64,000 nt of DNA, taken from an uncultured Clostridia bacterium (GTDB lineage Bacteria > Bacillota > Clostridia > Christensenellales > Borkfalkiaceae). Every line of letters begins with the position of its first letter. Position 1 is the first letter of the stretch. The notes beneath the pieces are model-generated. The model was not told where the DNA came from, did no database searches, and saw only the letters and a list, made by a program, of their open reading frames with translations. Positions 20,047 through 63,864 of this stretch are shown here, one piece after another. Both the position numbers and the translations under genes were made by a program. The stretch covers positions 185,074-249,073 of the forward strand of contig CALVLK010000001.1 of NCBI GenBank assembly GCA_944337235.1, given 5' to 3'.

Positions 20047-20082
20047 TGCGCTTTCGCATTCATAACGTCATTGGAACGGCAT
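20047..20082. other. Candidate recombination site at the end of the sigG N-half
   Basis: The core TCATTGGAACGGCAT (20068-20082, + strand) matches 14 of 15 bases of the sequence at 63833-63847, in the same orientation, with 9 exact bases (TCATTGGAA). Outside the core lies the small palindrome TGCGctttCGCA (20047-20058). A similar palindrome flanks the outer side of the other site. Coding similarity to SigG stops exactly in this core. Confidence 0.7.
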
Positions 20083-20356
20083 AAGTGGAAAATTTGACCT
20101 CGTAACGGAGATCGAAATGGTCGATCGCCTTGATCAGCCCCACGCAGCCCGCCTGAAAGATATCGTCCGCCGCCGCGTTCTTTGCCCAGAACCGTTTGAC
20201 GAGCGAGAGCACGAGGCGCATGTTCCCGATGATGAACTGTTCGCGCGCCCTTTCGTCGCCCGCCTTCAGCGCCCGCATGAGCCTGTCGTTCTCCTCTGCC
20301 GTAAGTTTGGGCAGCCCCGCCGTATCTACACCGCATATGACAACTTTTTGCAACAT
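20060..20356 (-). CDS. sigG: Sporulation sigma factor SigG, N-terminal half (split gene)
   Basis: The first 96 residues of the late forespore sigma factor: KVVICGVDTAGLPKL (SigG signature), region 1.2/2.1 (GNMRLVLSLVKRF) and 2.2-2.4 (FQAGCVGLIKAI, VKFSTYAVPM). After PM the frame reads Thr-Leu-stop, whereas intact SigG continues into region 2.4 and regions 3 and 4. Those missing parts are at 63339-63833 on the same strand. The ATG at 20356 has a GGAGGAGAGGG site, and the gene follows sigE in the usual spoIIGA-sigE-sigG order. A possible sporulation-type promoter (GGCATAGA, 15 bases, CATACT) lies in the sigE-sigG gap. The coding sequence is not decayed, which suggests it is still used after rearrangement. 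Confidence 0.9.
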   Translation of the reverse strand: MLQKVVICGVDTAGLPKLTAEENDRLMRALKAGDERAREQFIIGNMRLVLSLVKRFWAKNAAADDIFQAGCVGLIKAIDHFDLRYEVKFSTYAVPMTL

Positions 20357-20467
20357 TACCCTCTCCTCCTTATGTACCCGTACGGAAGAAGTATGTGCGA
20401 CCGCGCATATTCTATGCCATACCGCGGGGGGAGCAATGCGGACCCGATCCAAGGCGCGGTCCGTATC

Positions 20468-21178
20468 TTATACCAGTTTCGAAATCTCCTTGCGCAGCCG
20501 CTGAATGATGCGCTTTTCCAGGCGGGAGATATAGCTCTGCGAGATCCCGAGCTCGTCGGCGACGTCCTTTTGCGTCATCTCCTCTCCGCCGTCCAGCCCG
20601 AAGCGCAGGAACATGATGCGCCTCTCCCGCTCGGGCAGGCGTTCGAGCGCCTCGCGCAGCAGCTGCTTTTCCACATTGCTCTCTACGCCGCTGTACACGC
20701 TGTCGCTGTCTGTGCCGAGAATGTCCGAAAGCAGCAATTCGTTGCCCTCGAAGTCGGTGTTCAGCGGCTCGTCGAAGGAGATCTCGCTCTTGAGGCGGGA
20801 CGTACGCCTTAGATACATGAGGATCTCGTTTTCGATGCACCGCGAGGCATAGGTCGCAAGTTTGATATTCTTGTCGGTGCGGAAGGAGTTGATCGCCTTG
20901 ATCAGCCCGATCGTGCCGATCGAGATCAGGTCGTCGGCGTCTACGCCCGTGTTTTCGAACTTGCGCGAGATATATACGACGAGGCGCAGATTATGTACGA
21001 TCAGCTGACTTTTGATCTCCTCCGCCTCCTCGCCCTGTTCGAGTTTTTGGAGCATCTCCGCCTCTTCCTCGCGCGAGAGGGGCTGCGGAAGCGCCTCTCC
21101 CCCGCACAGGTAGTGCACGACGTTCTCTCCCCCGATCATCTTGTTCAACAGTTCCCCGAGTATTGCAATCAAGCCCAT
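20468..21178 (-). CDS. sigE: Sporulation sigma factor SigE (pro-sigma-E)
   Basis: The early mother-cell sigma factor, 236 residues. It has an amphipathic pro-sequence ([24 protein letters not shown]) before the processed region beginning near [10 protein letters not shown], which SpoIIGA should cleave. Region 2 ([40 protein letters not shown]) and region 4 ([24 protein letters not shown]) are nearly identical to the Bacillus protein. The start has a GGGAGGTGAGCC site. Its 5' end overlaps an open extension of spoIIGA. Confidence 0.96.
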
Positions 21179-21962
21179 GGCTCACCTCCCTCAATGATGG
21201 ATGCAGCACGATGCCGAACCTCCCGCCCAACGTACCCGTCGTGAGATAGACATCTTCAAAGAGCGCCTCGCCCGCCTGCAGCCGCGCACACACGAACACG
21301 GGCGCGGTGCGTTCGCCGTTGACGGAGCCGATGCGGAGCATCCCCACGCTCTTTGGATGCTCGCCGAACAGCGCAAAGGCGGCGAGCGGCGAAATGACGC
21401 AGACGGGCACCCCGCGAAAGGTGAGCGCATTGCCGCTGTCCCAAAGGCCGCGCAGGCGGCAGCTGCGCTCCCCGCTGACGAGCGTACACGAACAGGCATA
21501 TCTGCGCGCATGCACCGCCCGCCTCAAGCACTTCAGAAAGAGGACCGCGCCCGCAGCAAAGCATGCAGCGCCTGCGCAGACGAGCACGGGATGCACGCGC
21601 TCACCCGCAAACGCCCCCTCGGAAAAGGTGAGAAAGGGCGCCGAAAAGAGCGCAGTCATGGCGCCGCCCATGAGGAACATCCATACAAGAAAGATGCAGC
21701 CCGTGCACACCCAGGCACGCAGGCGCCACGACGGCAGAACAACGGCGGCGGGCAAAAATGCGCCGAGCAGCCTTACGGCGTAATCTGCAGCCGCGGGCAG
21801 CGAAAACAGCGGGTACACGACCGCCCCCGCCGCGCCGACGAACGCCGCAGCAATCAGCCGCAGCGGGCGCACCATCGCTCTCTGACAGCGCAGTGCGAGC
21901 CAGAGCAGCAGCATATCCGGAATAAAATTGACGAGAAACACATCTTCCAGATAGAGCGTCAT
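20991..21962 (-). CDS. spoIIGA: SpoIIGA, sigma-E processing peptidase
   Basis: A membrane aspartyl protease that activates pro-SigE at the sporulation septum. The start is the ATG at 21962 with a GGAGGGGGAC site; the N-terminus [17 protein letters not shown] is typical. Five hydrophobic segments precede a protease domain with the catalytic Asp175 in LWDSGNAL. The domain ends near GIVLHPSL. In this frame no stop follows, so the reading continues 188 bases into sigE as a Gly/Arg-rich tail; a stop (21191) exists one frame away. Either the stop was lost, a small frameshift lies near the end, or the tail is real. Confidence 0.88.
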
Positions 21963-21983
21963 GTCCCCCTCCGTATATTGCCC

Positions 21984-22038
21984 ATTATAGCGGAAGCGCG
22001 GCAAAGAATCATGAAAAGGCATGCCGATTTGTGGCGAA
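21984..22038 (-). promoter_or_regulatory. Candidate spoIIG promoter with a possible Spo0A box
   Basis: TATAAT on the minus strand (21984-21989) lies 22 bases before the spoIIGA ATG, but there is no good -35 at 17 bases. TGGCGAA (22032-22038, + strand) fits the 0A-box pattern TGNCGAA about 58 bases upstream of the predicted start, as expected for a Spo0A-activated spoIIG-type promoter. Single box, so tentative. Confidence 0.4.
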
Positions 22039-22095
22039 TCGAGGCATGCCGCCTATTGCAGAGACGCGCCGACAATACGGCGCCCCTCCTCAATA

Positions 22096-22120
22096 TGAAA
22101 AACCGCCCCATACGGGGCGG
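22096..22120 (-). terminator. Intrinsic terminator after the small lipoprotein gene
   Basis: Minus strand: CCGCCCC-GTAT-GGGGCGG followed by TTTTTC. It lies 48 bases after the stop at 22168. Confidence 0.8.
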
Positions 22121-22167
22121 CACAGAGATAAATATGACTTTTTTGATGGATCGGCGTCAACTTCTAT

Positions 22168-22611
22168 TTATTTTACTGTAACATATAAACGAATACTCCT
22201 GAAATTCCAATCCGACTTATTCGTATGAAAAGCAACTGAATATATGCCTTTTTCTTTTATGATCTCCGTATTATATTGTTCACCGGTTGGGCTCGTATAA
22301 AGTGGGCTACTTCCTCCAAAGTCATTTATCGCAGCGCCTGAGCAACCGAGCCATCTGTCTCCGCCGTGCGGTGCGCCGTAGACATAGTATGAATCGATGC
22401 CAAATGTCATCTCTTCACCCGTGTATTCGAACTCATAAGAGAGTTCGTCTATTCTGGGCTCAAATACCCATTCCATGCTGTAGTTGTTCGACACTTTAAT
22501 GGCGACATCGTACTTCGGCTCTTCCTGTTTGCAGCCGACAAAGCACAAGAGCGCCATTGCAGCCAACATGACGGCCGCAACAACGCCGCAACACAACTTT
22601 TTTGTTTTCAT
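22168..22611 (-). CDS. Small predicted lipoprotein, unknown function
   Basis: 147 residues with a signal peptide and lipobox LLCFVGC (Cys27). The mature part is short and beta-rich, with many Tyr and acidic residues; no domain was recognised. It is more AT-rich than its neighbours. The ATG at 22611 has an AAGGAG site. It is monocistronic: a terminator follows, and a different terminator ends upp upstream. Confidence 0.75.
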   Translation of the reverse strand: MKTKKLCCGVVAAVMLAAMALLCFVGCKQEEPKYDVAIKVSNNYSMEWVFEPRIDELSYEFEYTGEEMTFGIDSYYVYGAPHGGDRWLGCSGAAINDFGGSSPLYTSPTGEQYNTEIIKEKGIYSVAFHTNKSDWNFRSIRLYVTVK

Positions 22612-22736
22612 ATTTTATCTCCTTATTTTTTTCATGTTATTATTGTAGCACGCAGTTGTAATATTCTACCCCATATTTTGTCATTAAATTGTAAAAATTT
22701 AAAAGCATACAATCCTGCGCGGCCGCACTGTGCAGA

Positions 22737-22777
22737 ACAGAAAAGTGACCCGCGGGCATCGCCCTGCGGGTCACTTC
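22737..22777 (-). terminator. Intrinsic terminator after upp
   Basis: Minus strand: AAGTGACCCGC-a-GGGC, small loop, GCCC-g-CGGGTCACTT, then TTCT. It lies 18 bases after the upp stop. Confidence 0.85.
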
Positions 22778-22794
22778 TGCATAGAAAGTTCCTA

Positions 22795-23433
22795 TTATTT
22801 TGTGCCGTAAAGGCGGTCGCCCGCGTCGCCGAGGCCGGGCAGAATATACCCGTTCTCGTTCAGGCAGCGGTCGAGCGTAGAGACGTACACGCGCACGTCG
22901 GGGTGCTCGCGCGCCACGCGTTCGATGCCCTCGGGCGCGGCGATGATGGACATCATGCGGATATTCTTGCAACCGCGCTTTTTCAGCGCCGCAAGCGCGT
23001 CGCACGCCGACCCGCCCGTCGCAAGCATGGGATCGACAAGGATCACCGTCTTGTTCTCGATGCCCTCGGGAAGTTTGCAGTAGTACTCCTGCGGGACGAG
23101 CGTCTCCTCGTCGCGATACATGCCGATATGCCCGACGCGCGCCGTGGGGAACACCTTGTGAACCCCGTTGACCATGCCCAGCCCCGCACGCAGAATGGGC
23201 ACGATCGCCACGCTCTCCTCGGGAATGCGGTACTGTATCGTCTTTTCGAGGGGGGTTTCTACCTCGACGGGCACAAGCTCCACATCGCCCATGCTGACAT
23301 AGGTCATGATCTGCGTGATCTCTTCCACCAGCTCGCGGAATTCCTTCATGCCCGTATTCTTGTCGCGCAGGATAGAGATCTTGTGCTTGATGAGCGGGTG
23401 ATCAAAGATAAAGACGTTAGGATAACTGTTCAT
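22795..23433 (-). CDS. upp: Uracil phosphoribosyltransferase
   Basis: Converts uracil and PRPP to UMP in pyrimidine salvage. It has 212 residues, normal for the family. The PRPP loop [20 protein letters not shown] and the C-terminal uracil-binding [13 protein letters not shown] are present. The start is at 23433 with a GGAGG site, inside the 3' end of uraA (17-base overlap). The uraA-upp pair is the standard uracil uptake/salvage unit. Confidence 0.96.
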
Positions 23434-24892
23434 TGTCTGCCTCCTGCGTGGTCGTCTGATCGGAGGAGACTGCCGCCTCCTCTTGCGCTTCCCCTTCCGT
23501 AGCCGTGCCGCCTGCGTTCTCTGCCGCCTGCTCCTTCTTGTTGCCAAGGTTGACGATGACGTTCACGATGATGCCGAGGATGAGCGCGCAGGCGATGCTT
23601 GTGATCTGCACCTGCCCGAACTGCAACACCATACCGCCTACGCCCGCAATGAGGATGACGGACGCGGTGAACAGATTGCGGTTGTCGTTGAGGTCGACGG
23701 GCTGAAGCATCTTCAGTCCGGAGACGGCGATGAAGCCATACAGCGCCGTGCAGACACCGCCCATGACGCAGCTGGGAATGGTCGCAAGGAAGGTCATAAA
23801 CGGCGCAATGAAAGAAGCCACGATGGCAAGGATCGCCGTGAGAAGGATGGTCGAGACGGAGGCATTGCCCGAGATCGCAACGCAGCCGACCGACTCGCCG
23901 TACGTCGTGTTGGGGCAGCCGCCGAAGAAGGCGCCCACGATCGAGCCGACGCCGTCGCCGAGCAGCGTACGGGAGAGCCCGGGATCGGTGAGCAGATCCT
24001 GCTCGATGATCGAGGAGAGGTTCTTATGATCTGCAATGTGCTCCGCAAAGACGACGAAGGCAACGGGCGTATATGCCACCGCGACCGTTCCGATGTATGC
24101 GCCGATGTTTGTGCCCTCGGGGATGCCGCCACGGAAAGCCTCGACAAATGTGAAGTCGGGGTACCACTGCATGTTCTGAAAGATCGTGAAGTCGATGATC
24201 TTGAGCGCGTCGACGTCTGCAGCATAGCCGATCCCCGTAAAGATCGCCGCCACGACATAGCCCGCGAGGATCCCGAGGATAAAGGGGATCATCTTGATCA
24301 TTTTTTTGCCGTAGACCGAGCAGACGATGGTCACGATGAGGGTGACAAGCCCGCAGAGGAAGGCAATGTAGGGGGAGCAGAGCATCTGCCCTGCCGCATC
24401 GGTGACGCTCCCTTGCATGAAATCGCTGACGGCATTCCCCGCAAGCGAGAGCCCGATGATCGCGACCGTAGGGCCGATGACGACCGCAGGCATGAGTTTA
24501 TTGATCCAGTTTACACCGCAGAATTTGATGACGATGGCGATGACGACATAGACGAGCCCTGCAAAGCATGCGCCCACGATGATGCCGATGTAGCCGAGCA
24601 TGGACGATGCCGCACCGGCAAACGCTGCGGACAGCGAGCCGATGAAGGCAAAGGAGGAGCCGAGAAAGACGGGGCTCTTGAATTTTGTAAACAACAGATA
24701 GACGATCGTTCCCGCGCCCGCCCCGAAGAGCGCCGCAGACTGCGACATGGGCGCGAAGCCTTCGGGCATCGTGCTGTTGATGACGGCGGGAACCGCAATG
24801 GTCGCCGCCAGGATCGCGAGCAGCTGCTGCAGAGCAAACAGGATCAGCTGCCCGACTTTGGGTTTGTCTTTTACGCCATAGATCAGCTTCAT
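23417..24892 (-). CDS. uraA: Uracil permease (NCS2 family uracil-xanthine permease)
   Basis: A 491-residue NCS2 nucleobase:cation symporter with about 13-14 membrane segments. The NCS2 signature is [18 protein letters not shown], and [16 protein letters not shown] carries the substrate-binding Glu/His. Specificity for uracil is inferred from the downstream upp gene. The C-terminal ~40 residues are hydrophilic and rich in Glu, Ala, Gln and Thr. The short (~55-base) leader shows no PyrR-type attenuator. Confidence 0.93.
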
Positions 24893-24959
24893 TGGTAAAA
24901 CCTCTTGTGAAAAATTTGCATTCCCGTCCTACGCTTGCGGGGCAAAAACGCATTATCTC

Positions 24960-24988
24960 ATTATAGCATCCGCCGCAGAAAAAAGCAA
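24960..24988 (-). promoter_or_regulatory. SigA-type promoter of uraA-upp
   Basis: Minus strand: TTGCTT (24983-24988), 17-base spacer, TATAAT (24960-24965). Transcript start near 24953. Confidence 0.75.
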
Positions 24989-25068
24989 GCATATGTGAAA
25001 ACTTTGTGAAAAATAACAAACAAAGATTCTTACAATAAAGCCTGATCTGTCACTGCGCAACAAAAAAC

Positions 25069-25147
25069 AAAAAAAGAACGAGCAACAATCGTTACCCGTT
25101 CCGTGCGAATAGACTTAAAATGTCTGGTCGGAATCCCCCGACGTCGC
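25069..25147 (-). ncRNA. Candidate small RNA, ~79 nt, three stem-loops
   Basis: In the 421-base gap between uraA and the choice-of-anchor gene, a good promoter is followed 79 bases later by a strong terminator with no convincing ORF between. The predicted RNA has a hairpin GTCGG-GGGATT-CCGAC, a second AGAC-ATTTTAA-GTCT, and a terminator stem of 11 bp (two GU pairs) followed by seven T (25069-25075). The rest of the gap (25183-25313) shows nothing. No known RNA family was recognised. Confidence 0.55.
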
Positions 25148-25153
25148 GTCATA

Positions 25154-25182
25154 ATGATATGCTGTTTTTTGGGAAAAGTCAA
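25154..25182 (-). promoter_or_regulatory. Promoter of the candidate small RNA
   Basis: Minus strand: TTGACT (25177-25182), 17-base spacer, TATCAT (25154-25159). It starts 130 bases after the stop of the upstream gene and reads away from it. Confidence 0.62.
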
Positions 25183-25313
25183 GTGCTTTTTCAGCATGAC
25201 GGGCGAATTGATCGGCCGCATTGCAAATCCGGGTACAAAAATACCGCCGCCCGAAGCGGTGCAGTTGCGCAACCCGCTTCAGACGGCGTTCTTTCTGTGT
25301 TCAAAGAGAGAGT

Positions 25314-27827
25314 TTATTTCCTCTTCTGGCGGATCACAAGGAAGATGATCAGTGCGCCAGCTGCAAGCACGGCGATCACGCACACCGCAATGATCCAACC
25401 TGCGACCCCGCCTTCCTCAAGCTCAAACTTAGGCTCAGGTTCGGGCTCGGGTTCGGGCTCGGGTTCAGGCTCGGGTTCAGGCTCAGGTTCAGGCTCAGGC
25501 TCGGGCTCAGGTTCGGGTTCAGGCTCGGGCTCAGGTTCGGGTTCAGGTTCAAATTCTGCCGTCACTTCGTATGCGGCGACCGTTCCAGACACCTCGAACG
25601 CGGCGAGCAGAATGGCGCTGTCTCCGTTTTCGATGACGGCAAGGCCTTCGGGTGCGACGTCGCCCTCGGTCGCGCCGTTGAAATCGCGCGTGTTGATATA
25701 GTTGACATAGCTTGCCGCAGCGGGATCGGTGACGTCATAGATCATGATGCCGCCGATGCGCTCGAGCGCGATGAAGGCAAACGCCCTGCCGCCGATCGTG
25801 GCGATGGTAACAGCCTCGGGCTCGGTGCCCTTCTTGGCAGTGCGGCTCTCCACCTCGAGATCGTCGTTGGAGACATTGTACTGCCCGGGCAGGAACTGCC
25901 AGGTCAACGCCTCAAAGTCATTTGCACTGTCAAAGACGCGGCTGAGCCCGTCCGTTCCGACTTCGAAGATGCTGAACGAGCGTGCCCCGTACAGATAATT
26001 TCCGCTTCCGATGCCCGCCTTCACGTCGTTGTCGAGGACACGCACGCTCTCGGCCGTAACGGTGCCGTCTGCAGATACAAGATCGACCCTTGCTTCATCG
26101 GTAAAATCGCCCCATTCGCGCGCATCGCCCTCGTTGGCGGTCAGAAGATACGTTCTGCCCTCCCGCTCGTAGACGGCGATGCCGTCCGGCATGTATACGC
26201 CGTATGTATTGGCGTACGTCTTGGGAAGATATGTGCCGTCGGAATCATCGAGGTCGATGGCGTTCTCCTCGAGGCTGTAATCCTGGAAGCCGAGCGGCTC
26301 GACCGCGGTAAAGGTTGCCGTTTCGATGTTGAGGATCGCGATCGCGTTTGCCTCCTGCAGGGCGACATATGCGGCGTTGCCGCTGATTGCGATATACTCG
26401 GGTTCAAGATCGGCTGCCGCGGTGAGCGGCGCGCCGTCGCCGTCGGGATCGTTGAAGATCACGCCCTCTGCGGCGAGCTGTGCCGAAGAGAACTGTGCGA
26501 ATCCGGCAATGCGTACGGCGTTTTCGCTCGCCTGCGTGTCGATGACGCTCACCGTTCCTTCGGGGTCGACGATGCCCTCGCCATAGCCCATGCGCGGCTC
26601 GCCTTCGTCCGCCGTGAGCACATAGCGGCCGTTGCCCGCAAAGGTGACCATATCGGGCTGTACCCCCGTCGTGTAGACGGCGACGATCTCGTTGTCATAG
26701 TTGAGAAGCGCCACGCGCCCCGCCTTGGTATAGTCGGAATCCTGCAGCGCGACGGCGACCCGATCGTTGACGGGATCGACGGCAACGCTCGTCATATCGC
26801 CGTAGGCAAAGGTATTATCTTCCTCCGCCATAAGCTGCGCGATATCGACGGCCTCTATCGTTCCGAAGCTGCCGTCTGCATTGACGTTGAACACATTGAG
26901 CGTCGATTCCGCACCGTTGACGACATATGCCTTTTGATTGTCGGGGCTGTATGCGACGATCTCTGCAACGCCGCCGTCACCATTCGCCTCGCCCAGGCGC
27001 ACGCCGCCCGTCTTCTGAACGGAGAGCGCGGCATCCTCGCTGAAGCCGTCCTCCTTCACGACGTAACTTGCCTGCGCCGCAACCGTCTCGCCGCGGCTGT
27101 TCTGAACGGGGAAGTCGGCGGGAGATACCTCGGAATAGTCGAGTTCATCGGCGTCCTGCGCGTTGTTGTCGGTATCCGCGCCGTCGACGCGGGCGATCGC
27201 CTTCTTCTTGGACTGGACGTCGACATATCCGCCCTCATAAGCGGGCGGGATCTGCGCGTCCTCGGTGTCGTTCCCCTGCACGGCAAGCAGATCAACATAG
27301 CCCTGCGGGCGGTTCTCCGCCGTGATGGCAGCCGCAAAGGCGTCTGTGAGCGTCACCGCGCGGTCGAAGAGCGCAACCGAGACGCCCTTGTTGTGCAGCT
27401 GGACATCCCACTCCATGTCGCCCTCGGGAACGAGCAGCGCCGTGGAAGAGAGGGTATCTACCGCACCGCAGCGCACAAGGTAGTAGCCGTCCGCCGCGAT
27501 GCTGCCGCTCAGGGCGAGCCCGAGCCAGACGGCGTTGTCGTTGCCGTTCAGGCTGGACCTGTAGTAGAGATGCCACCCTTCCAGCAAGACGGCAGCGTCC
27601 GTCGGATTGTAAAGTTCGATAAAGCTGTGGCTGACCACTTCGGCGTCGTCGGACGCGCCGAAGACCTGATTGACGAGCACATGCTCCACCGTGACGTCAT
27701 AGGCGCCGTTTGCGTCGTATGGCGTACCGGGCGTTGCGTCCTCGGCACGCGCGCGTATGGGGCATGCCGACGCGATGAGCGCCGCACTCATGACTGCGGC
27801 AAGCATACAACTGACTGTTTTCTTCAT
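25314..27827 (-). CDS. Choice-of-anchor I family secreted protein with Glu-Pro stalk and membrane anchor
   Basis: An 837-residue surface protein. In order: signal peptide (1-28, AxA-type site), lamin-tail-like domain (~45-190: [23 protein letters not shown]), a long beta-propeller-like region (~285-750) typical of choice-of-anchor I / alkaline-phosphatase-like proteins, about 20 Glu-Pro repeats, one transmembrane helix (~810-832) and a short basic tail. It would stand away from the membrane through the wall on the stiff EP stalk. Catalytic activity is unclear. The start has an AGGAG site; the gene is monocistronic. Confidence 0.85.
25432..25551. repeat. Hexanucleotide repeat encoding ~20 Glu-Pro pairs
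   Basis: About twenty tandem copies of a GAGCCN/GAACCN-type unit (read on the minus strand) with variation only at wobble positions. It lies inside the anchor protein gene; copy number may vary between strains through slippage. Confidence 0.85.
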
Positions 27828-28012
27828 GAAATACCTACTCCTGATTCTTTCTTCTGTCTTTTTTCAAGGCAGTTCAAGTATAGCAGGCATTTCTGTTATT
27901 TTTTACATTATTTTGTCTCAAAAATGTAAAATCTGAAATCTGCACGTCAAAAAATTCAAAAAAGAGAAAACAGAACAGAGGCCACTCAGGCTGTAACATA
28001 TGCGCAAAATGC

Positions 28013-28040
28013 ACGACCCCCGACGGCTGTCGGAGGTCGT
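28013..28040. terminator. Probable terminator hairpin after the phosphatase gene
   Basis: A 12-bp stem ACGACCCCCGAC / GTCGGAGGTCGT with loop GGCT. The better T-tract is on the + strand (28046-28050); on the minus strand, where the upstream gene ends at 28092, it is followed only by GCATTTTG. The rest of 27828-28091 shows no gene. Confidence 0.5.
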
Positions 28041-44640: not shown

Positions 44641-44967
44641 TTATTCGTATTGTGAGAAATCTCTGCGATCTGGGCGGGGCTGCGGCTGCGGGGCGCATTC
44701 CACCCATTTTCCCTTCTTCTTCCCTTGGCGCGGAAGCGTTCCATGCAACTCTACCATGATCACGTCCACGCCGATCTTGTTGATATCCTTCAGGTCGATG
44801 AAAATATCGGCCTTTCCAAAGCGGAACCCGCGCCCGCCGGGCGCAACGATCCCGAGCACCTTGCCTTCGGGATAGGTAAATACGATATCGCATATCCTTC
44901 CCAGCCGCTTTCCGTCGCAGATGTTCACGACTTCCTTTTGTCTCAATTCCTGATAACTCGTTTCCAC
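44641..44967 (-). CDS. PRC-barrel protein, YlmC/YmxH sporulation family
   Basis: 108 residues. The PRC-barrel core (LRQKEVVNICDGKRLGRICDIVF, VLGIVAP, IKKIGVDVIMV-like strand) matches YlmC/YmxH proteins. These are common in spore-formers, usually next to sigG, and have no defined role. Here it stands 24 kb from sigE. It has an added basic Gln/Pro-rich tail. The start is GTG at 44967 with a weak AGGAT site. Confidence 0.88.
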   Translation of the reverse strand: METSYQELRQKEVVNICDGKRLGRICDIVFTYPEGKVLGIVAPGGRGFRFGKADIFIDLKDINKIGVDVIMVELHGTLPRQGKKKGKWVECAPQPQPRPDRRDFSQYE

Positions 44968-51302: not shown

Positions 51303-51345
51303 GAGCGCCGTCCGCATACTGCGGGCGGCGCTCACTCTTTTCTTT
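51303..51345. terminator. Intrinsic terminator between htrA-like and spoIVA
   Basis: GAGCGCCGTCCGCA-TAC-TGCGGGCGGCGCTC then ACTCTTTTCTTT on the + strand; a 14-bp stem with one GU pair. Confidence 0.85.
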
Positions 51346-52811
51346 CAGATCAGGATACAGATCAGTCCCGCCTTGCCCTCGTTGGTGATCCGCGTGAGGG
51401 TGCGGCGCATCTTTCTGCGCATGTTTTCGCCCATGGAACGGCTCTTAATGCCAAGCTCCTCGGCGAGCATATCCTGCAGGGTCCTGCCGAACATGTTCGT
51501 CCCCCATGCGGCCTCCGGGTCGCTGACCATCTGTTCCGTGAGCTCCTGTACGAAATTTTCGCACTGTTCGTCGCTGCCGATGGTGGGGTATGCCTCGGCG
51601 CTCAGGTCGACGCGTACGATGTGATAACTCGGGGCATCCGCATGCAGATGCACCCCCGCCCTTCCGCCGCGGCGGACGAGAAGGGGCTCTTTCAGCTTCA
51701 TCTCCGCGCGATCGGGCATGACGATGCCGTAACCCGTCTCCTCCGCCTCATGGAAGGCAGAAGAGAGACGGTCTGCAAGTTTTTTTGCCTCCCGCAGCTG
51801 CGCCATATATCCCATGAGCGAAAAATCGTCGCGGATCTCCGCGCCGCATTGCTCGCTCAACACCTCGTAAAACGCCCCATCCTTTGCCGCAATGGAGAGA
51901 TGTGCCACGCCGCGGGCGGGATCTAAGCTGCGCTCTTCGGGCGGGAGCAGGCGGCTGCTCTCCGCAAAAAGCCCGTCGAACAGGGCGCAATCGCTGAGCT
52001 TGCAGATGGAGGGCGCCACCGCGCGCAGTGCGGAGAGCACCTCGCGGATGAGCGGGCTGTCGGCGTCGAGCACGCGCATCCAGTCGGGCAGATCGATATC
52101 CACCGCAAGGACGGGGAACTCATACAGCGCCCGCGTAAGGACGTGCAGCAGCTCCTCACGCGTCGTATTCTCGATGTCGATGGCGATCACGGGCACGCCG
52201 TAGCGCTTGGAGAGCTGTTCCGTCGTATCCGACGCACGCTCGGGATGCACGCAATTATAGAGGATGATATACGGCTTGCCGATGTCCTTGAGTTCCTGTG
52301 CCGCACGCGCCTCTGCCACTTCATATGCCGCGCGCTGCAGCCCCGTAAACGAACCGTCCGCCGTGACGAGAATGCCGATCGTGGAATGGTCGCGGATCAC
52401 GCGGCGCGTGCCCTCCTCCGCCGCCTCGGCAAAGGGAAGCGGCTGTTCGCTCCACGGCGTGTGCACAAGGCGCGCCTCGCCCTCCTCCTCGAACCCCGAA
52501 GCGCCCTCTACGGGGAAGCCGACGCAGTCCACAAGGCGCACCTTTGCCGTGGCGTCGCCCGCGCGCAGTTCCGCCCCCTCCTCGGGGATAAACTTCGGCT
52601 CGGTGGTCATGACCGTCTTGCCGGACGCCGACTGGGGCAGCTCGTCGCGCATGCGCTGCGCCTTTGCCCCCTGCACGTCGGGCAGCACCACCAGCTCCAT
52701 GAATTTTTTGATGAACGTCGACTTGCCCGTCCGCACGGGTCCGACGACGCCGAGATAAATTTCACCGCCCGTGCGCGCGGCGAACTCCTCATACACGCTG
52801 AAATCATCCAT
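51345..52811 (-). CDS. spoIVA: Stage IV sporulation protein A (SpoIVA)
   Basis: A cytoskeletal ATPase that polymerises on the forespore surface to build the coat basement layer; 488 residues, normal length. The TRAFAC-type Walker A is GPVRTGKST (~24-32), and VRLVDCVGFPVEGA and TIGILVTADGSFTG match the ATPase core. The C-terminal KSRSMGENMRRKMRRTLTRITNEGKAGLICILI is the conserved membrane-targeting end. It is monocistronic, with a candidate SigE promoter. Confidence 0.96.
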   Translation of the reverse strand: MDDFSVYEEFAARTGGEIYLGVVGPVRTGKSTFIKKFMELVVLPDVQGAKAQRMRDELPQSASGKTVMTTEPKFIPEEGAELRAGDATAKVRLVDCVGFPVEGASGFEEEGEARLVHTPWSEQPLPFAEAAEEGTRRVIRDHSTIGILVTADGSFTGLQRAAYEVAEARAAQELKDIGKPYIILYNCVHPERASDTTEQLSKRYGVPVIAIDIENTTREELLHVLTRALYEFPVLAVDIDLPDWMRVLDADSPLIREVLSALRAVAPSICKLSDCALFDGLFAESSRLLPPEERSLDPARGVAHLSIAAKDGAFYEVLSEQCGAEIRDDFSLMGYMAQLREAKKLADRLSSAFHEAEETGYGIVMPDRAEMKLKEPLLVRRGGRAGVHLHADAPSYHIVRVDLSAEAYPTIGSDEQCENFVQELTEQMVSDPEAAWGTNMFGRTLQDMLAEELGIKSRSMGENMRRKMRRTLTRITNEGKAGLICILI

Positions 52812-58323: not shown

Positions 58324-58409
58324 AAACGGTTTGTTCACTCCTTTTCTGTCGTACGCAAATATGCGAACAAGCTCTGTATGTGCGCGTGCCCTTTGGCGCA
58401 CTTTGTTTT

Positions 58410-58438: not shown

Positions 58439-58457
58439 TCGAAATCCGATAAAATCT

Positions 58458-58486
58458 TTGACTTTTCACACAGGGCATGTTAAAAT
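58458..58486 (+). promoter_or_regulatory. Promoter of the asd-dapA-dapB operon
   Basis: TTGACT (58458-58463), 17-base spacer, TAAAAT (58481-58486). The transcript start near 58493 is just before the riboswitch. Confidence 0.7.
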
Positions 58487-58496
58487 AGGCATACTG

Positions 58497-58645
58497 ATGA
58501 GAGGAGCGGCCGAGCATGAGTACGCTGCGGGAGGGGCACGGGAAGCCCCGGCGAGCGCAGCGAAAAGGGCATCGCCGCCGAAACGCGGGGAGTTCCCGTG
58601 CCGCGCGTTGGGAGCAAGGGAGAATACCCTTGCTACTGTCACCGC
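58497..58645 (+). ncRNA. Lysine riboswitch (L-box) aptamer
   Basis: The conserved elements appear in the right order: AGAGGAGCGGC, GAGTA, AAGGGCATCGCCGCCGAA, then a hairpin and the closing CTGTCA. An extra stem (GGGGC..GCCCC) and the AAGGG..CCCTT stem fit the five-helix junction. The following genes (asd, dapA, dapB) make lysine precursors. Lysine binding should favour the terminator at 58682. Confidence 0.85.
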
Positions 58646-58681
58646 GGTGATGTGCTTTTCGGTAATTGCGTCGAAACAGTT

Positions 58682-58714
58682 CGGGCGGTGACCATTCGTT
58701 GCCGCCCTTTCGTT
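58682..58714 (+). terminator. Riboswitch expression-platform terminator
   Basis: GGGCGG, 13-base loop, CCGCCC, then TTTCGTTT; between the aptamer and the asd ribosome site. Confidence 0.75.
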
Positions 58715-58738
58715 TGCTCAGATCACGGAGGAATTGAT

Positions 58739-59821
58739 ATGCAGCCACAATACCGCGTCGCCGTCGTCGGCGCAACGGGCATGGTGGGGCAGCGCTTTGT
58801 TTGCCTGCTTGCCCGCCACCCCTGGTTCCGCCCCGTCGCCCTGCTTGCCAGCGCGGCATCTGCGGGAAAGTGCTACCGCGAAGCCGTCGCTGGAAAATGG
58901 GCGATGCAGGAGGAGATCCCCGCCTATGCGGCAGACCTCGTCGTAAAGGACGCGCACAAGGACGCGCCCTCGCTCGTCGGCGAAGTGGATTTTGTGTTCT
59001 GCGCCGTCAATCTGGATAAGGATAGGACGCGCGCATTGGAAGAGATGTACGCACGGCTCGAGATCCCCGTCGTCTCCAACAACTCCGCGCTGCGCGCAGA
59101 GCAAGACGTGCCCATGGTCATCCCCGAGGTCAACCCCGAGCACATCGAAGTCATCCCCTTCCAGCGCAGACGCCTTGGCACCAGGCGCGGTTTTATCGCC
59201 GTCAAGAGCAACTGCTCGCTGCAATCGTATGTCCCGCTCCTGCACCCGCTGCGCGGATACGGCATCGAACGGGTGCTCGCCTGTACCTACCAGGCGATCT
59301 CCGGCGCGGGAAAGACCTTTGATACCATGCCCGAGATCGCAGACAACATCATCCCCTACATCGGCGGCGAGGAGGAGAAGAGCGAGCGCGAGCCCCTCAA
59401 GATATGGGGCAGCGTCGAGGGCGGCGTCATCGTCCCCGCGGCGGCGCCCGTCATCACGACGCAGTGCTTCCGCGTGCCCGTCTCGGACGGACATACCGCC
59501 GCCGTCTTCGTCAAATTCCGCCAAAAGCCGGGCAAAGAGGAGATCCTCACCGCCTGGAGAGAGTACCGCGGCGTTCCTGGGGCATTGCACCTTCCCTCGG
59601 CGCCCAAGCAATTCTTGCATTATTTTGAGGAAAACGATCGCCCGCAGCCCAGGCTCGACCGCATGCTCGAGGGCGGCATGGCCGTCTCCGCAGGCAGATT
59701 GCGCGAGGACGCGATCTTCGATTATAAGTTTGTGGGCTGCTCCCACAACACGCTGCTCGGCGCGGCGGGCGGCGCCGTTCTGCTTGCCGAACTGCTGGCG
59801 ACAAAGGGTTATTTCGATTGA
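58739..59821 (+). CDS. asd: Aspartate-semialdehyde dehydrogenase
   Basis: Reduces aspartyl phosphate to the semialdehyde, the branch point to lysine/DAP, threonine and methionine. 360 residues: NADP motif VVGATGMVGQRF, active-site Cys159 in VKSNCSLQ, and QAISGAGKTFDTMPEI. The sequence belongs to the longer archaeal/fungal-type Asd rather than the Bacillus type. Start at 58739 with a GGAGG site. First gene behind the lysine riboswitch. Confidence 0.94.
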   Translation: MQPQYRVAVVGATGMVGQRFVCLLARHPWFRPVALLASAASAGKCYREAVAGKWAMQEEIPAYAADLVVKDAHKDAPSLVGEVDFVFCAVNLDKDRTRALEEMYARLEIPVVSNNSALRAEQDVPMVIPEVNPEHIEVIPFQRRRLGTRRGFIAVKSNCSLQSYVPLLHPLRGYGIERVLACTYQAISGAGKTFDTMPEIADNIIPYIGGEEEKSEREPLKIWGSVEGGVIVPAAAPVITTQCFRVPVSDGHTAAVFVKFRQKPGKEEILTAWREYRGVPGALHLPSAPKQFLHYFEENDRPQPRLDRMLEGGMAVSAGRLREDAIFDYKFVGCSHNTLLGAAGGAVLLAELLATKGYFD

Positions 59822-59845
59822 CATCAAATTATAACGGAGTATCAT

Positions 59846-60736
59846 ATGACAGGATTTTTACAGGGTTCTGCAACGGCGATGATCACGCCGTTCACGCAGA
59901 CGGGCGTCAACTTTGACGCACTCTCGCAGCTGATCGAATATCAGATCGAAAACGGAACGGACGCACTCGTCGTCCTTGGCACGACGGGGGAACCCGCCAC
60001 GATGACGGAGGAGGAAAAGGAGGCGGTCATCCGCCATGCTGTGGCGCAGTGCAAGGGACGCACCAAGGTCATCATCGGCACGGGCGGAAACAACACCGCG
60101 CGCGTCCTCCGCGCCAGCGCCAGAGCCGAGGAACTTGGCGCGGACGGCATCCTCTGCGTCACCCCGTACTACAACAAATGCACGCAGGCGGGGCTGATCA
60201 AGTATTACGAGAGCATCTCGCAGTGCGTACATATCCCCGTCATTGCCTATAACGTACCGGGGAGAACGGGCGTGAACATTCTGCCCGAGACGATGGCGCG
60301 CATTGCCGAATTCGATCACATCGCCGGCCTCAAGGAGGCAAGCGGCAACATGGCGCAGGTCATGGAGACGGCGCGGCTCATCCGCGGAAAGTGCGATCTC
60401 TATTCAGGCGAGGATGCCCTCAACCTGCCCATCCTGCTCGTGGGCGGGAGCGCCGTTATCTCCGTCCTCTCCAACATCGTGCCGGGCGCCGTCAAACAGC
60501 TCTGCACGGCTGCTGCGGCGGGCGATCTTGCCGGTGCGATCGCATTGAGCGATTCGCTTGCGCCCCTCGCCAAGGCATGCTTTATCGAGGTCAACCCCAT
60601 CCCCGTCAAGGCGGCGATGAACTACCTCGGCTTCGCGTCGGGCGAGCCGCGCGCCCCGCTGACGGTCCTCGAAAGCGAACATGCCGCCCGGCTTCTGGAG
60701 GCGATGCGCAGCTTCGGGCTGGAGGTGCGCGCATGA
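59846..60736 (+). CDS. dapA: 4-hydroxy-tetrahydrodipicolinate synthase
   Basis: Condenses pyruvate with aspartate semialdehyde. 296 residues: Schiff-base Lys163 in AGLKEASGN, Tyr135 in IAYNVPGRTG, and GTTGEPATMTEEE near 45-57. ATG at 59846 with a GGAG site. It ends in an ATGA overlap with dapB. Confidence 0.97.
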   Translation: MTGFLQGSATAMITPFTQTGVNFDALSQLIEYQIENGTDALVVLGTTGEPATMTEEEKEAVIRHAVAQCKGRTKVIIGTGGNNTARVLRASARAEELGADGILCVTPYYNKCTQAGLIKYYESISQCVHIPVIAYNVPGRTGVNILPETMARIAEFDHIAGLKEASGNMAQVMETARLIRGKCDLYSGEDALNLPILLVGGSAVISVLSNIVPGAVKQLCTAAAAGDLAGAIALSDSLAPLAKACFIEVNPIPVKAAMNYLGFASGEPRAPLTVLESEHAARLLEAMRSFGLEVRA

Positions 60737-61488
60737 ATATCATCCTCCTCGGCGCCTGCGGGCGCATGGGCAAAAACACGAGCGAGCTTGCCGCAGAGCG
60801 AGGCGACACCATCGTCTGCGGCGTCGACATTACCCCCTCCCCCATGCCCTTCCCCGTCTACACAAGCTTTGCCGAAGTGACGGAGCAGGCGGACGTCGTC
60901 ATCGATTTTTCCTCCGTGCAGAATCTGGAGGAGCGCCTTGCCTTCTGCCGGGCGCGGGGCGTCGGCATCGTCCTTGCGGCAACGGGATACTCCGCGGAGG
61001 ATCTTGCGCTCCTCAACGCCTATGCCAAAGAGATCCCCCTCTTTCAGTCGGGCAACTTCTCCATCGGCATCAACCTCTTACAGCGCCTTGCAAAGAAGGC
61101 GGCGAAGGTGCTGGGCGATGGTTTTGACGCAGAGATCATCGAGCGGCACCACAACAAGAAGAAGGACGCCCCCTCGGGCACGGCGCTCATGCTTGCAAAG
61201 AGCGTGAACGAGGGATTCAGCGGCGAAAAGCACGAGATCTACGGCAGATACGGCATGGTGGGCGCGCGCGATCGCAGCGAGATCGGCATTCACGCCGTGC
61301 GCGGCGGGACCATCGTAGGCGAACATGAAGTAATGTTTGCAGGCGAAGACGAGATCATCACCCTCTCGCACTCGGCAAGAAGCCGCAAGGTGTTTGCATC
61401 CGGCGCGCTGCGCGCCGCACAGTGGCTGACGGGGCGCGCCCCCGGCCGCTACGACATGGACGACCTGCTTGCAGAGCTTTTTGCTTAA
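60733..61488 (+). CDS. dapB: 4-hydroxy-tetrahydrodipicolinate reductase
   Basis: Reduces hydroxy-tetrahydrodipicolinate with NAD(P)H on the way to meso-DAP and lysine. 251 residues: GACGRMG (8-14), catalytic ERHHNKKKDAPSGTA (His139/His140, Lys143). Start at 60733 with a GGAGGTG site inside dapA. A strong terminator follows, closing the operon. Confidence 0.96.
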   Translation: MNIILLGACGRMGKNTSELAAERGDTIVCGVDITPSPMPFPVYTSFAEVTEQADVVIDFSSVQNLEERLAFCRARGVGIVLAATGYSAEDLALLNAYAKEIPLFQSGNFSIGINLLQRLAKKAAKVLGDGFDAEIIERHHNKKKDAPSGTALMLAKSVNEGFSGEKHEIYGRYGMVGARDRSEIGIHAVRGGTIVGEHEVMFAGEDEIITLSHSARSRKVFASGALRAAQWLTGRAPGRYDMDDLLAELFA

Positions 61489-61495
61489 ACTCCCT

Positions 61496-61526
61496 GCGGG
61501 GCGGCGATATGCCGCCCCGCTTTTCT
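61496..61526 (+). terminator. Intrinsic terminator of the asd-dapA-dapB operon
   Basis: A 10-bp perfect stem GCGGGGCGGC / GCCGCCCCGC, loop GATAT, then TTTTCT. Confidence 0.9.
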
Positions 61527-61570
61527 ATTGCGAAAAGGTCTGTAAAATTTTGTCAATGTGAAAAAATCAC

Positions 61571-61600
61571 TTGACAGAGGCATATGATCCGTGATATGAT
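61571..61600 (+). promoter_or_regulatory. Promoter of the corC leader
   Basis: TTGACA (61571-61576), 18-base spacer, TATGAT (61595-61600). It lies 212 bases upstream of the corC start codon. Confidence 0.7.
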
Positions 61601-61606
61601 ATCTGC

Positions 61607-61772
61607 ATAGGAGGATTTAAGCATAGTGGACGGCAGCGAAAGTAGCGTGCCGCGACGAACGCGGAACTTTATACGGCTTTTGTAGCATAACTTGTCCTGC
61701 GCAAGCGGGAACGGGTTATGTTTTTTGTGTTGTAAAAAATCGGAAATTATTCCAATACCGCATTTCCGATTC
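61607..61772 (+). ncRNA. Structured 5' leader of corC, possible riboswitch of unassigned class
   Basis: The leader holds two mutually exclusive hairpins: CGGCA...TGCCG, and CCGCG-ACGAA-CGCGG, which shares its first bases. Then come an intrinsic terminator (61686-61726) and a 10-base inverted repeat AATCGGAAAT...ATTTCCGATT (61738-61771). This layout is what a metal- or ligand-sensing attenuator looks like, but it does not match the M-box, yybP-ykoY, NiCo or fluoride consensus as I know them. Confidence 0.5.
61686..61726 (+). terminator. Terminator inside the corC leader
   Basis: CATAAC at 61686 pairs with GTTATG at 61715-61720, extended by GU/GC pairs around loop GCAA, then six T. It lies upstream of the gene, so it is probably an attenuator. 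Confidence 0.8.
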
Positions 61773-61818
61773 CATTCCGACGGGCACATGATAAGCCTCG
61801 TCTTATGCTGAATACACC

Positions 61819-63213
61819 ATGGACCCCGGCAGTATAGTCCTGTCATTGGTACTGCAAATCGTGCTGATCGCACTCAACGCGGTCTTTGCCAGCGCAGAGA
61901 TCGCCGTCATCTCGGCAAACAAGACCAAGATGGAAAAACTTGCGGAAGATGGCGACAAGCGCGCAAAGCGCATCGTCAGGCTCACCGCACAGCCCTCGAA
62001 ATTCCTCTCCACCATTCAGGTGGCGATCACCCTTGCCTCGTTGCTCGGCAGTGCATTTGCCGCAGATAACTTTGCAGGGCCGCTCGCACAGCTTCTGGTG
62101 GACGCGGGCGTTCCCCTCTCCTACTCTGTATTGAGTACGATCTGCCTGATCCTGATCACGCTCGTGCTCTCCTTCTTCAGCATCGTGTTCGGCGAACTCG
62201 TTCCCAAGCGGATCGCCATGCGCAATGCGGAAAAACTCTCGTTCGGGCTTTCGGGCATTCTCACCTTCGTCTCGTATGCGTTCGCCCCCCTTGTGTGGCT
62301 GCTTACCGTCACGTCGAACGGAATTCTGCGCCTCTTTGGCATCAAACCGGAGGACGAGGGCGAAGACGTGACCGAAGAAGAGATCATGCTCATGGCGGAG
62401 GCGGGCAGCGAAAAGGGCTCCATCGACGAAAAGGAGAACGAGTTCATCCAGAATATTTTCGAGTTTAAAGAGAACGACGTCGGCGAAGTATGTACGCACC
62501 GCAAGGATGTCGACTTCCTTTTTGAACGCGACGACCCCGCTGTCTGGGAAGAGACCCTGAAAAAGAGCAATCACACCTATTATCCCGTCTGCGGAAAGGA
62601 CATCGATGATGTGACGGGTGTGCTCAATACCAAGATCTACTTCCGCCTGAACGACAAATCGCGTGAGAACGTCATGCAGAAGGCGGTCTTCGACCCCATT
62701 TTCATCTCTGAGACGATGCAGGCGGACGATCTGTTCTACCGCATGAAGACGACGCGCGAATATTTCGCTATCGTGCTCGACGAATACGGCGGCATCAACG
62801 GCATCATAACGCTGCACGACCTCATCGAGCTGCTTGTGGGCGACCTCAACGAAAAGGGTGAGAAGCTCAAATACGAGATCAAAAAGATCGACGAGAACAA
62901 GTGGGAGATCAACGGACTTGCCCCCTTCGACGAGGTGGTCGAGGCAATGGAGTTGGATCTGCCCGAAGAGGACAGCGATTACGAGACCTTCAGCGGCTAT
63001 GTCTGCGAAATGCTGGGCGAAGTCCCCGACGACGGCACGACGGCTGAGGCGGAAAACGAATATGTCCATGTCGACGTGTTGTGCGTCAACGAACACCGCA
63101 TCGAAAAAATGCAGGTGCAAAAGATCATCAAAGAGGAACCGGAGGAGGAAGACGAGGGCCGCCGCAAGCGCGCAAAGCGCTCGGAGGACGCCGAACAGGA
63201 AAAGAGCGAATAA
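61819..63213 (+). CDS. CNNM/CorC family (HlyC/CorC) transporter with CBS domains
   Basis: 464 residues: a DUF21/CNNM transmembrane domain (~5-185, four hydrophobic segments), a CBS pair (~210-330), a CorC_HlyC domain (~345-435) and a very acidic/basic C-terminal tail. Family members export or regulate Mg2+/Co2+. The start ATG has no Shine-Dalgarno, and an in-frame stop just upstream rules out a longer form; control may act through the structured leader. Confidence 0.9.
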   Translation: MDPGSIVLSLVLQIVLIALNAVFASAEIAVISANKTKMEKLAEDGDKRAKRIVRLTAQPSKFLSTIQVAITLASLLGSAFAADNFAGPLAQLLVDAGVPLSYSVLSTICLILITLVLSFFSIVFGELVPKRIAMRNAEKLSFGLSGILTFVSYAFAPLVWLLTVTSNGILRLFGIKPEDEGEDVTEEEIMLMAEAGSEKGSIDEKENEFIQNIFEFKENDVGEVCTHRKDVDFLFERDDPAVWEETLKKSNHTYYPVCGKDIDDVTGVLNTKIYFRLNDKSRENVMQKAVFDPIFISETMQADDLFYRMKTTREYFAIVLDEYGGINGIITLHDLIELLVGDLNEKGEKLKYEIKKIDENKWEINGLAPFDEVVEAMELDLPEEDSDYETFSGYVCEMLGEVPDDGTTAEAENEYVHVDVLCVNEHRIEKMQVQKIIKEEPEEEDEGRRKRAKRSEDAEQEKSE

Positions 63214-63290
63214 CGCTGCCCTATCCTGCTGCGGCAGACATCGTTCAGAACATTTCACTTCCATCCGATCCTATCCCGAATATAATTTGA

Positions 63291-63312
63291 CCCGGCGCCG
63301 TTTGGCGTCGGG
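63291..63312. terminator. Terminator hairpin between corC and the sigG C-half
   Basis: CCCGGCGCC-GTTT-GGCGTCGGG (one GU pair), followed by CCTTTCCCTGTT on the + strand. Confidence 0.65.
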
Positions 63313-63338
63313 CCTTTCCCTGTTCAGATCAGTGCCAT

Positions 63339-63847
63339 TTAACCCCCGTCGCAGGCGATATCGCTGCGAATGGAGGTGATCGCATTCTTCTCAAGCCGCG
63401 AAACCTGCGCCTGTGAGATGCCCACCTCCTCCGAGATCTCCGTCTGCGTCTTGCCATGGTAATAGCGCATCGTAAGGATCTTTCGTTCGCGTTCGCCCAA
63501 TTTTCCGATCGCCTCTTTGAGCGCAACGTGCTCCGCCCAGATCTGCTCGCTCTGCGTCTCGTCGCAGAGCTGGTCCATCAGCTCCAACGTATCGCCCGAT
63601 TTGTTGTAGACCGGGTCATACAGCGACACGGGATCGGAGATCGCATCGAGCGCATACACGACGTCGCGCTCCTCGACCTGCATTTCGGCGGCGATCTTTT
63701 CCAACGTTGCCTCCTCGTCACGCGCTTCAATGCCCTCGCGCACCTTCAGAATGCGGTATGCCGTATCGCGGATGGAGCGGGAGACGCGCAGCGAATTGTT
63801 GTCCCGCAGGTACCGCTTGATTTCGCCGAGTATCATTGGAATGGCAT
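63339..63847 (-). CDS. sigG: Sporulation sigma factor SigG, C-terminal part (split gene)
   Basis: From ATGATACTCGGC onward this encodes the last 164 residues of SigG: ILGEIKRYLRDNNSLRVSRS (end of region 2.4 and region 3), DAISDPVSLYDPVYN, and region 4 (KTQTEISEEVGISQAQVSRLEK). The homology begins at the codon after PM, exactly where the N-half at 20060 stops. Upstream of 63847 the frame continues to 63890 but is unrelated and has no ribosome site, so it is probably untranslated until joined. No decay is seen: all 164 codons are open and conserved. 96 + 164 = 260, the length of Bacillus SigG. Confidence 0.9.
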
Positions 63848-63864
63848 TTGCGATGCGAAACGCA
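63833..63864. other. Candidate recombination site at the start of the sigG C-half
   Basis: The core TCATTGGAATGGCAT (63833-63847, + strand) matches the site at 20068-20082 at 14 of 15 bases, same orientation, 43,765 bp away. On the outer side lies TGCGaaaCGCA (63854-63864), resembling TGCGctttCGCA beside the other site. The inner flanks carry no such motif. Confidence 0.7.

Follow-up and report, generated by a model that had tools for sequence, protein, structure and literature searches.

A sigG gene split at the attachment site of a large serine recombinase family in Borkfalkiaceae, and a possible skin-like rearrangement of a forespore gene

We analyzed a 64,000-nucleotide stretch of DNA (the window; C1:185074-249073) from a metagenome-assembled genome (MAG) of an uncultured gut bacterium of the Borkfalkiaceae, here G000 (27 contigs, 1,405,006 bases; completeness, 89%; contamination, 0.5%), in which sigG, the gene for sigma-G, lies in two parts. 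Sigma-G is a forespore factor (PMC6957869; this and the other papers are cited from excerpts). An earlier note, made from the letters of the window, had described the gene as cut into halves 43.8 kb apart, neither of them decayed; coordinates, reading frames, and SigG model matches agree, and the split is confirmed. Both parts are on the minus strand (Table 1), have SigG models as their best match (NCBIfam NF006071/TIGR02850), are free of stops and frameshifts, and look constrained. The 5′ part (N) ends in YEVKFSTYAVPM (...FSTYAVPM), followed by Thr-Leu-stop, and the 3′ part (C) starts with ILGEIKRYLRDN. The Sigma70_r2 match of the N-part stops at profile position 56 of 71, placing the break within sigma region 2. 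Two intact frames would suit halves that are made separately and act as a two-piece sigma-G, which we consider very improbable, since a protein broken inside region 2 is unlikely to work and the halves lie 43 kb apart in G000. An intact second sigG, a prospect the earlier note had allowed for, was not found in this 89%-complete genome: matches were the two halves and other sigma factor genes, none above the SigG cut-off.

The order on the coding strand is C-half, 43.8 kb, N-half, not N-element-C. A crossover at the core would therefore put a whole sigG on an excised 43.8-kb circle and join the outer flanks (A, beside the 20068 core; D, beside the 63833 core) in the chromosome. The earlier note had the halves rejoining at a 15-base core; this holds for the reading frame, as 96 + 164 codons give 260 for joined SigG, and falls short for the chromosome, where the gene would not be restored. 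By coordinates (no joining was done), the A-D joint would leave ~170 bp between the GH2-type gene and the prepilin-like start, a length usual for intergenic DNA. To the right of the 3′ half, only 153 bp of flank are known, because the contig (249,073 bases) terminates at window position 64000. The core itself, TCATTGGAAYGGCAT, occurs as two direct copies, both on one strand; neither a search of the window at ≤2 mismatches nor one of the genome for exact matches gave a further copy. Four of 100 shuffled windows also had at least two matches at ≤2 mismatches, with a pattern that was itself derived from the sites; the 15-base repeat by itself is weak evidence, not beyond chance.

Table 1. Features of the window and related loci (window positions unless a contig or locus is named; att, attachment; LSR, large serine recombinase; ORF, open reading frame)
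Feature	Position	Strand	Remark
sigG 5′ part	20069-20356	-	96 codons, Met1 to Met of AVPM; ORF extends to stop at 20060
sigG 3′ part	63339-63833	-	164 codons, ILGEIK... through stop
attL-type core copy	20068-20082	+	TCATTGGAACGGCAT
attR-type core copy	63833-63847	+	TCATTGGAATGGCAT
A-side att arm	20048-20074	-	GAAA (mirror of TTTC) ends 21 nt past core CC, as in relatives
D-side att arm	63838-63863	-	TTTCG begins 21 nt ahead of core CC; dyad partner of A-side arm
Block between cores	20083-63832		43.8 kb core chromosome: sigE, spoIIGA, Sua5, spoIVA, dapA, dapB, others
sigE	20468-21178	-	Intact; directly upstream of sigG 5′ part
spoIIGA ORF	20991-22022	-	PF03419; overlaps sigE start
spoIVA	51345-52811	-	Intact; within block
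GH2-type gene	18295-20034	+	A flank; stop 33 bp ahead of attL core
D flank to contig end	63848-64000	+	ORF from 63966, 11 codons visible; we take it to be prepilin-like from its motif
G000 family LSR	L158 3259-4743 = C14:23259-24743		Between glycogen phosphorylase and TetR gene
Split spoVAD, G071	C8:64322-64933 and 27648-28031		
Split spoVAD, G015	C1:78208-78816 and C7:160961-161353		

The earlier note had suggested looking for the uninterrupted gene in close relatives, and most genomes of the genus carry it. Among the 103 genomes of the genus (G numbers, including G000; L numbers denote the stretches of DNA compared), sigG was full length in 88 at E < 1e-100 and split at the same codon in six (G000, G015, G017, G061, G098, and G100); G075 has a sigG cut by a contig end, G027 is intermediate, and seven had no match at that threshold. 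In G100 (98% complete), the two parts flank one 9.3-kb element on a single contig, in the order N-element-C. This element encodes a 196-amino-acid (aa) left-end protein without a Pfam match, a 492-aa large serine recombinase (LSR), a helix-turn-helix (HTH) protein, a HipA-like protein (HipA_C below the curated cut-off), and a TIR-TPR protein in which NB-ARC matches below threshold; inspection by eye added ORFs of HTH-like and sigma-like type. An LSR and a Fic protein precede the C-part in G015 and G017, and the L165 element encodes a TraG/VirB4-type ATPase (a relaxase was not sought). In G061, core chromosome (class V aminotransferase, yebC, and infC within 32 kb) lies upstream of the LSR and C-part on one contig, and the N-part is on a separate contig with ~540 bp beyond it. 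After attL comes a conserved left-end protein in which W-containing units recur (L071 2079-2918, L070 6524-7741, and L161 18646-19236, all on the minus strand, and L172); in G017 this protein is fused in frame to the SigG N-half (405-aa ORF), and neither of two left-end proteins scanned had a useful Pfam match.

Two genomes carry a rejoined gene. In G019, where the family LSR was not found, a 125-aa ORF and a second C-part (92% identical) lie downstream of a whole sigG. The ORF matches the left-end protein over ~68 residues (34 to 38% identity; E 4e-9 in a two-sequence search), and the second 3′ half lies 3.8 kb downstream of the whole gene (L044 9324-14106), with an AbiLi/AriA-like ATPase gene and others in between. 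The stretch looks like an element remnant with defense genes, and decay of the element was apparently followed by a rebuilding of sigG in G019. G027 has a 111-residue LSR fragment beside the C-part and a sigG that is rejoined as far as the contig reaches. Its contigs C11 (L048 1-77) and C5 (L047) share exactly 77 bp at the sigG core, where the N-part contig enters the C-part. A second C-part or an attL contig was not found in G027, which either holds two junction forms in one sample or lacks the duplicate; whole and split junctions may coexist in its assembly graph.

A GTDB scan with five LSRs, based on short patterns and not exhaustive, returned 15 loci, 13 of them close (50 to 64% identity to the first query) and two distant (23 to 24%), in relatives that include Candidatus Gallimonas merdae and Candidatus Borkfalkia faecavium. 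A sigG half is present in 11 of the 13 family loci, the remaining two being cut by contig ends. The C-part lies downstream of the LSR in 10 of the 13, at 0.2 to 4.8 kb (0.2 to 1.3 kb in eight of these 10); the N-part is present in two, and one locus has both halves. These comparisons show sigG, at the codons for AVPM, to be the predicted attachment site of an LSR family in Borkfalkiaceae. Assignment to the LSR class was by PF00239, PF07508, and PF13408, all above cut-off, and a length of about 490 aa; the Ser of YLRVSTD, which we take to be the catalytic residue, is invariant in five aligned LSRs. The LSRs of G017 and DXEW are 99.8% identical with sigG C-parts at 74%, whereas for CANOUP and JAAUYR the relation is reversed (62% versus 91%). 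Elements therefore pass from host to host and have repeatedly landed on the same codon. Among the matches listed in IMG/VR, plasmids, and phages, only distant relatives of the LSR (≤32% identity) were found.

Reading of seven N-side and 12 C-side junctions revealed a common architecture. In 11 of the 12 C-side junctions, TTTC begins 21 nt ahead of the core CC (22 nt in G027); in all seven N-side junctions, the mirror sequence GAAA has its end 21 nt past the core CC; the CAMOXE and CADBUU junctions were sought and not caught. Where both sides are available, in six genomes, the arms form inverted repeats at equal distances. The G000 arms are symmetric at 21/21 nt and pair as TTTCGCATCGCAAATGCCATT versus TTTCGCATTCATAACGTCATT, a match that one of 300 shuffles equalled; for the other five genomes the corresponding counts were 0, 0, 0, 0, and 7 of 300. 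The shared core in those five relatives is shorter, from CC to about TTCCAAT, and near-identity over 15 bases is found in G000 only. With the gene broken at both copies and family arms on both sides, we rejected a chance repeat; both window junctions show the attL/attR form of the sigG-tied LSR family. A core-like copy at a contig edge in G026 does not run on into sigG and was set aside.

The G000 family LSR is on another contig, C14. Its frame is intact, it is 57 to 58% identical to the four other LSRs in the alignment, and a whole-genome search found PF07508 on C14 and C15 only. No att arms were found near it at ≤7 mismatches. Tetranucleotide usage of C14 correlates with that of the window at r = 0.977, higher than for any of six other genomes tested, and contamination was rejected on this basis. 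G+C content at third codon positions (GC3), measured for 10 of 14 LSR loci, is 0.81 in the G000 LSR, as in glgP and sigE (eight window genes, 0.69 to 0.81), and the G061 LSR (0.74) is likewise at host level; the eight other LSRs range from 0.23 to 0.53 versus 0.52 to 0.88 for the sigG parts. We read the host-like composition of the G000 LSR as a probable sign of long residence.

An ORF of ~45 to 50 aa precedes the LSR in 14 loci (counted by eye; a regular expression caught 10 of the 14). The G000 copy has no Pfam match and is a candidate directionality factor, nothing more. Between the glgP stop (2998) and the start of this ORF (3113), L158 carries GTATA-N15-GGGAAAAATA (3037-3066), 46 bp before the ORF, which matches 13 of 13 positions of the sigma-F consensus we presume, and is the sole perfect match in 114,302 bases of G000 on both strands. 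That consensus was not found in print when looked for. A G upstream of the -10 element marks sigma-F promoters in Clostridioides difficile (PMC3789822). Over the 14 loci, best scores sum to 152 versus 131.3 ± 3.1 for composition-matched windows, a value reached in 0 of 20,000 draws, although the loci are not independent (two are identical there). Regions upstream of sigG itself (46 of 50 loci; no start was found in four) score 448 versus a null of 418 ± 5.6, which fits forespore promoters of this form in the genus; the G000 sigG upstream region scores 9/13 only.

It is possible that excision answers to stress or conjugation, in the manner of active lysogeny, and not to the sporulation program. 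The TraG/VirB4-type ATPase of L165 would fit this, as would the sigma-A-like promoters seen by eye at several element ends facing the C-part, but the putative forespore-type promoter stands before the LSR operon and two of the three best-scoring loci (G000 and G061) have LSRs of host composition; we give this explanation a slim chance. The element-end promoters are TTGCAA-N17-TATAAT-like, lie upstream of the C-half in L045, L046, L160, L165, and L166, and read across attR into it; on a circle, they would read into the left-end gene.

In the six split genomes, the median ratio of nonsynonymous to synonymous change (pN/pS) in the sigG parts against intact relatives is 0.14 to 0.22 (N) and 0.14 to 0.23 (C), inside the 5 to 95% range of intact pairs. 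Synonymous change to the nearest relative (pS, 0.44 to 0.66) is near saturation, so a young loss of function would be missed. We also considered spoVAD, which we take to be a forespore gene and a target of sigma-G; it is full length in G000, G017, G061, G098, and G100 and split in G015. Its match ends at profile position 203 to 206, after the codons for NNMGAAM, in 13 of the 103 genus genomes; a full copy is present as well in G005, and four genomes yielded this piece alone. Junctions were read for G015, G020, G069, and G071, and LSRs on these stretches belong to other families (21 to 25% identity to the sigG family).

Between the cores lies ordinary chromosome. A Pfam scan of 24 ORFs of the block identified sigE, spoIIGA, Sua5, DegV, oligopeptidase F, a DnaB_2 protein, an ECF transporter, SpoIVA, a semialdehyde dehydrogenase, DapA, DapB, and CNNM, along with others, and gave no match for some ORFs. 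No recombinase or conjugation machinery was named among them (tyrosine recombinases and relaxases were not sought), and the whole-genome search did not place the LSR domain in the block; the named genes being core, the block was rejected as a mobile element. The A flank, with RNase J, U32 peptidase, and fumarase, is core chromosome as well. A PRC-barrel gene and its neighbors follow sigG in many relatives; in the window the same run of genes is found, with the PRC-barrel gene at 44641-44967, but 18 kb from the C-part, so the region has been rearranged. The D flank, sought in 61 genomes, matched only itself apart from 20- to 28-base matches in G031 and G075, and the A-flank GH2 gene has relatives at 34 to 42% identity in 26 of 60 other genomes, which is uninformative on the original A-D site. 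The sigG locus is often rearranged elsewhere too: the gene is inverted relative to sigE in G006, G007, and G024, and sigE is not nearby in G001, G019, and G035 (L072-L089).

The att junctions could be real while the C-block-N order reflects a local misassembly or strain mosaic, the true genome having an ordinary N-element-C insertion. The contig end 153 bp past attR, the odd order and topology, and the dependence on a MAG are compatible with this, as are the G027 contigs that meet at exactly 77 bp, a typical assembly k-mer, so that mixed junctions may occur in such assemblies. However, a 15-base repeat is shorter than usual k-mers, the A flank continues in the same 249-kb contig with core genes, core genes lie upstream of the LSR and C-part on a single contig in G061 as well, an independent case, and sigG is moved or flipped in several other genomes; we regard such an artifact as distinctly unlikely.

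The reading we favor, as a model for the family, is a skin-like rearrangement that acts in the forespore, to which we assign a rough probability of 0.48. A sigma-F-type promoter would turn on the ~45-aa ORF, as candidate directionality factor, together with the LSR in the forespore; recombination of attL with attR would re-form sigG before sigma-G is needed, and sigma-G would then be made. Later, the LSR without the small factor would return the gene to its split state. Compact elements such as that of G100 would be a skin transferred to the other compartment. In G000, the original element may have been lost or rearranged, so that the att half-sites now flank a 43.8-kb core block; the intact LSR operon on C14 would act in trans, and whole sigG would lie on the block circle, to be kept and reinserted. 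A full germ line cycle for G000, in which a long-resident, sigma-F-controlled LSR cuts the block (sigE, sigG, spoIVA, and dapA/B) out as a circle that is kept in the nondividing spore and reinserted at germination, recombination timing the switch from sigma-F to sigma-G, seems unlikely to us. Counted in favor of the family-level model, besides the same-codon splits, the tie of the LSR to sigG, the complete G100 element, the att arms, the intact, host-like LSR of G000, and the small ORF and promoter ahead of it, are the rejoined sigG genes of G019 and G027, where the family LSR was not found or is a fragment, and the full-length spoVAD of G000.

Several observations weigh against this model. 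The mother-cell bias of published elements arises because the mother cell lyses and the spore genome is passed on, and elements are expected to avoid forespore targets, where excision would reach the germ line (PMC6957869). In the window, restoration would cost the excision of 43.8 kb including dapA and dapB, and the LSR is unlinked to the sigG parts on the G000 contigs; its host-like composition could also come from a GC-rich donor. Taken singly, three of the 14 promoter loci pass 0.05 against matched windows (G000, G061, and G100), and shuffling singles out three only (G000 and G061, 0/200 each; CADBUU, 4/200), most of the others being partial. Nine LSRs of other families, the control set left from 26 loci, also exceed the null (88 versus 82.5 ± 2.3; P = 0.017), so a general intergenic effect accounts for part of the promoter signal. 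Of nine LSRs compared, four are 96 to 99.8% identical between hosts whose sigG C-parts are 72 to 86% identical; with such recent spread, intact halves in these four hosts say little. Nearest-relative pN/pS for the G000 C-part (0.29) and the G017 parts (0.26 and 0.25) lies above the 95% mark of all intact pairs, and the G000 C-part has seven changes at 108 columns that do not vary otherwise, a maximum shared with G017. A second count gave 4/92 for the G000 C-part versus ≤2 in intact genes (G008 and G011 for N and G030 and G088 for C were left out, no sequence having been obtained). As G000 sigE is also the most changed of 18 (6/156), we take the lineage to be generally diverged.

Plain insertional inactivation is an alternative: sigG would be a landing site, sporulation dispensable or briefly lost, the insertions young, and the G000 element scattered by ordinary rearrangement. 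Near-identical LSRs in four hosts, cargo of the kind found in ordinary mobile elements (TraG/VirB4-type ATPase, TIR, Fic, and HipA-like proteins), a spoVAD match that stops at one place in 13/103 genomes, as if sporulation genes were tolerated targets, and the raised nearest-relative pN/pS of the G000 C-part and G017 are all consistent with it. We nevertheless hold it doubtful, since the window has intact sigE, spoIIGA, and spoIVA and G000 an intact spoVAD, the LSRs of G000 and G061 combine host composition with intact frames, G000 has the forespore-type promoter (by the presumed consensus), and G019 has a whole sigG and no LSR, as if rebuilt.

A recurrent element in a forespore sigma gene would break the mother-cell rule: either a surviving cell undergoes a reversible rearrangement, or elements regularly shut off sporulation in gut bacteria. 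The forespore model, if true, would offer a DNA-level account of how the sigma-F to sigma-G switch is timed in these species. The family also provides recombinases with a defined natural site, and tools that score sporulation by gene presence could misread split genomes as lacking sigG.

Intervening elements are known in sigK, spoVFB, spoVR, gerE, spsM, and kamA, almost all in mother-cell genes (PMC6957869, as excerpted). Among the open-access literature matches listed, judged by title and the start of the abstract, no paper dealt with sigG/spoIIIG or spoVAD as the site of such an element. The gin element in gerE, SP-beta in spsM, phi3T in kamA, and the spoVFB and spoVR elements share with the present family site-specific recombinases within sporulation genes (PMC5595907, PMC6957869), and gin and phi3T have inverted repeats at or near att (PMC5595907, PMC6957869); they differ in occupying mother-cell genes and not a forespore sigma gene (PMC6957869). 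The yin element in yabG of Clostridium botulinum is likewise a prophage-like element in a sporulation gene, although another gene (PMC10747680). The best named model for the G000 LSR is XisF of the Anabaena fdxN element (NF041201; 110 bits, residues 29 to 471 of 494), but the score is far below the model cut-off of 375 bits and the LSR is not a member. The Listeria comK prophage reinserts after excision. It too restores a gene by excision in a surviving cell, but is a phage in a competence gene with no sporulation link (PMC6957869). The closest likeness is to the skin elements of Bacillus subtilis and C. difficile, which likewise interrupt a sporulation sigma gene in frame. The C. difficile LSR is immediately upstream of the sigK 3′ part and alone integrates, a 72-aa protein being the directionality factor needed for excision (PMC5025042). 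The relatives have a closely similar LSR position, and the small ORF by the LSR could be such a factor, whereas sigG is a forespore gene and the relatives' elements are horizontally spread with conjugation- or defense-type cargo. The earlier note had likened the window to sigK skin. That likeness holds for the sigG-codon recombinase elements of relatives, G100 having its element between the 5′ and 3′ parts in that order; the window shares with skin the split sporulation gene with undecayed, in-frame parts and attL/attR with matching core and inverted arms, but its order is reversed, its interval is core chromosome, its LSR is on C14 and not inside an element near the 3′ part, and the target, SigG by model in both halves, is not a mother-cell gene. 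Our best reading of G000 and its relatives is a skin-like rearrangement that affects a forespore gene and may be under forespore control; nearly all published cases concern mother-cell genes.

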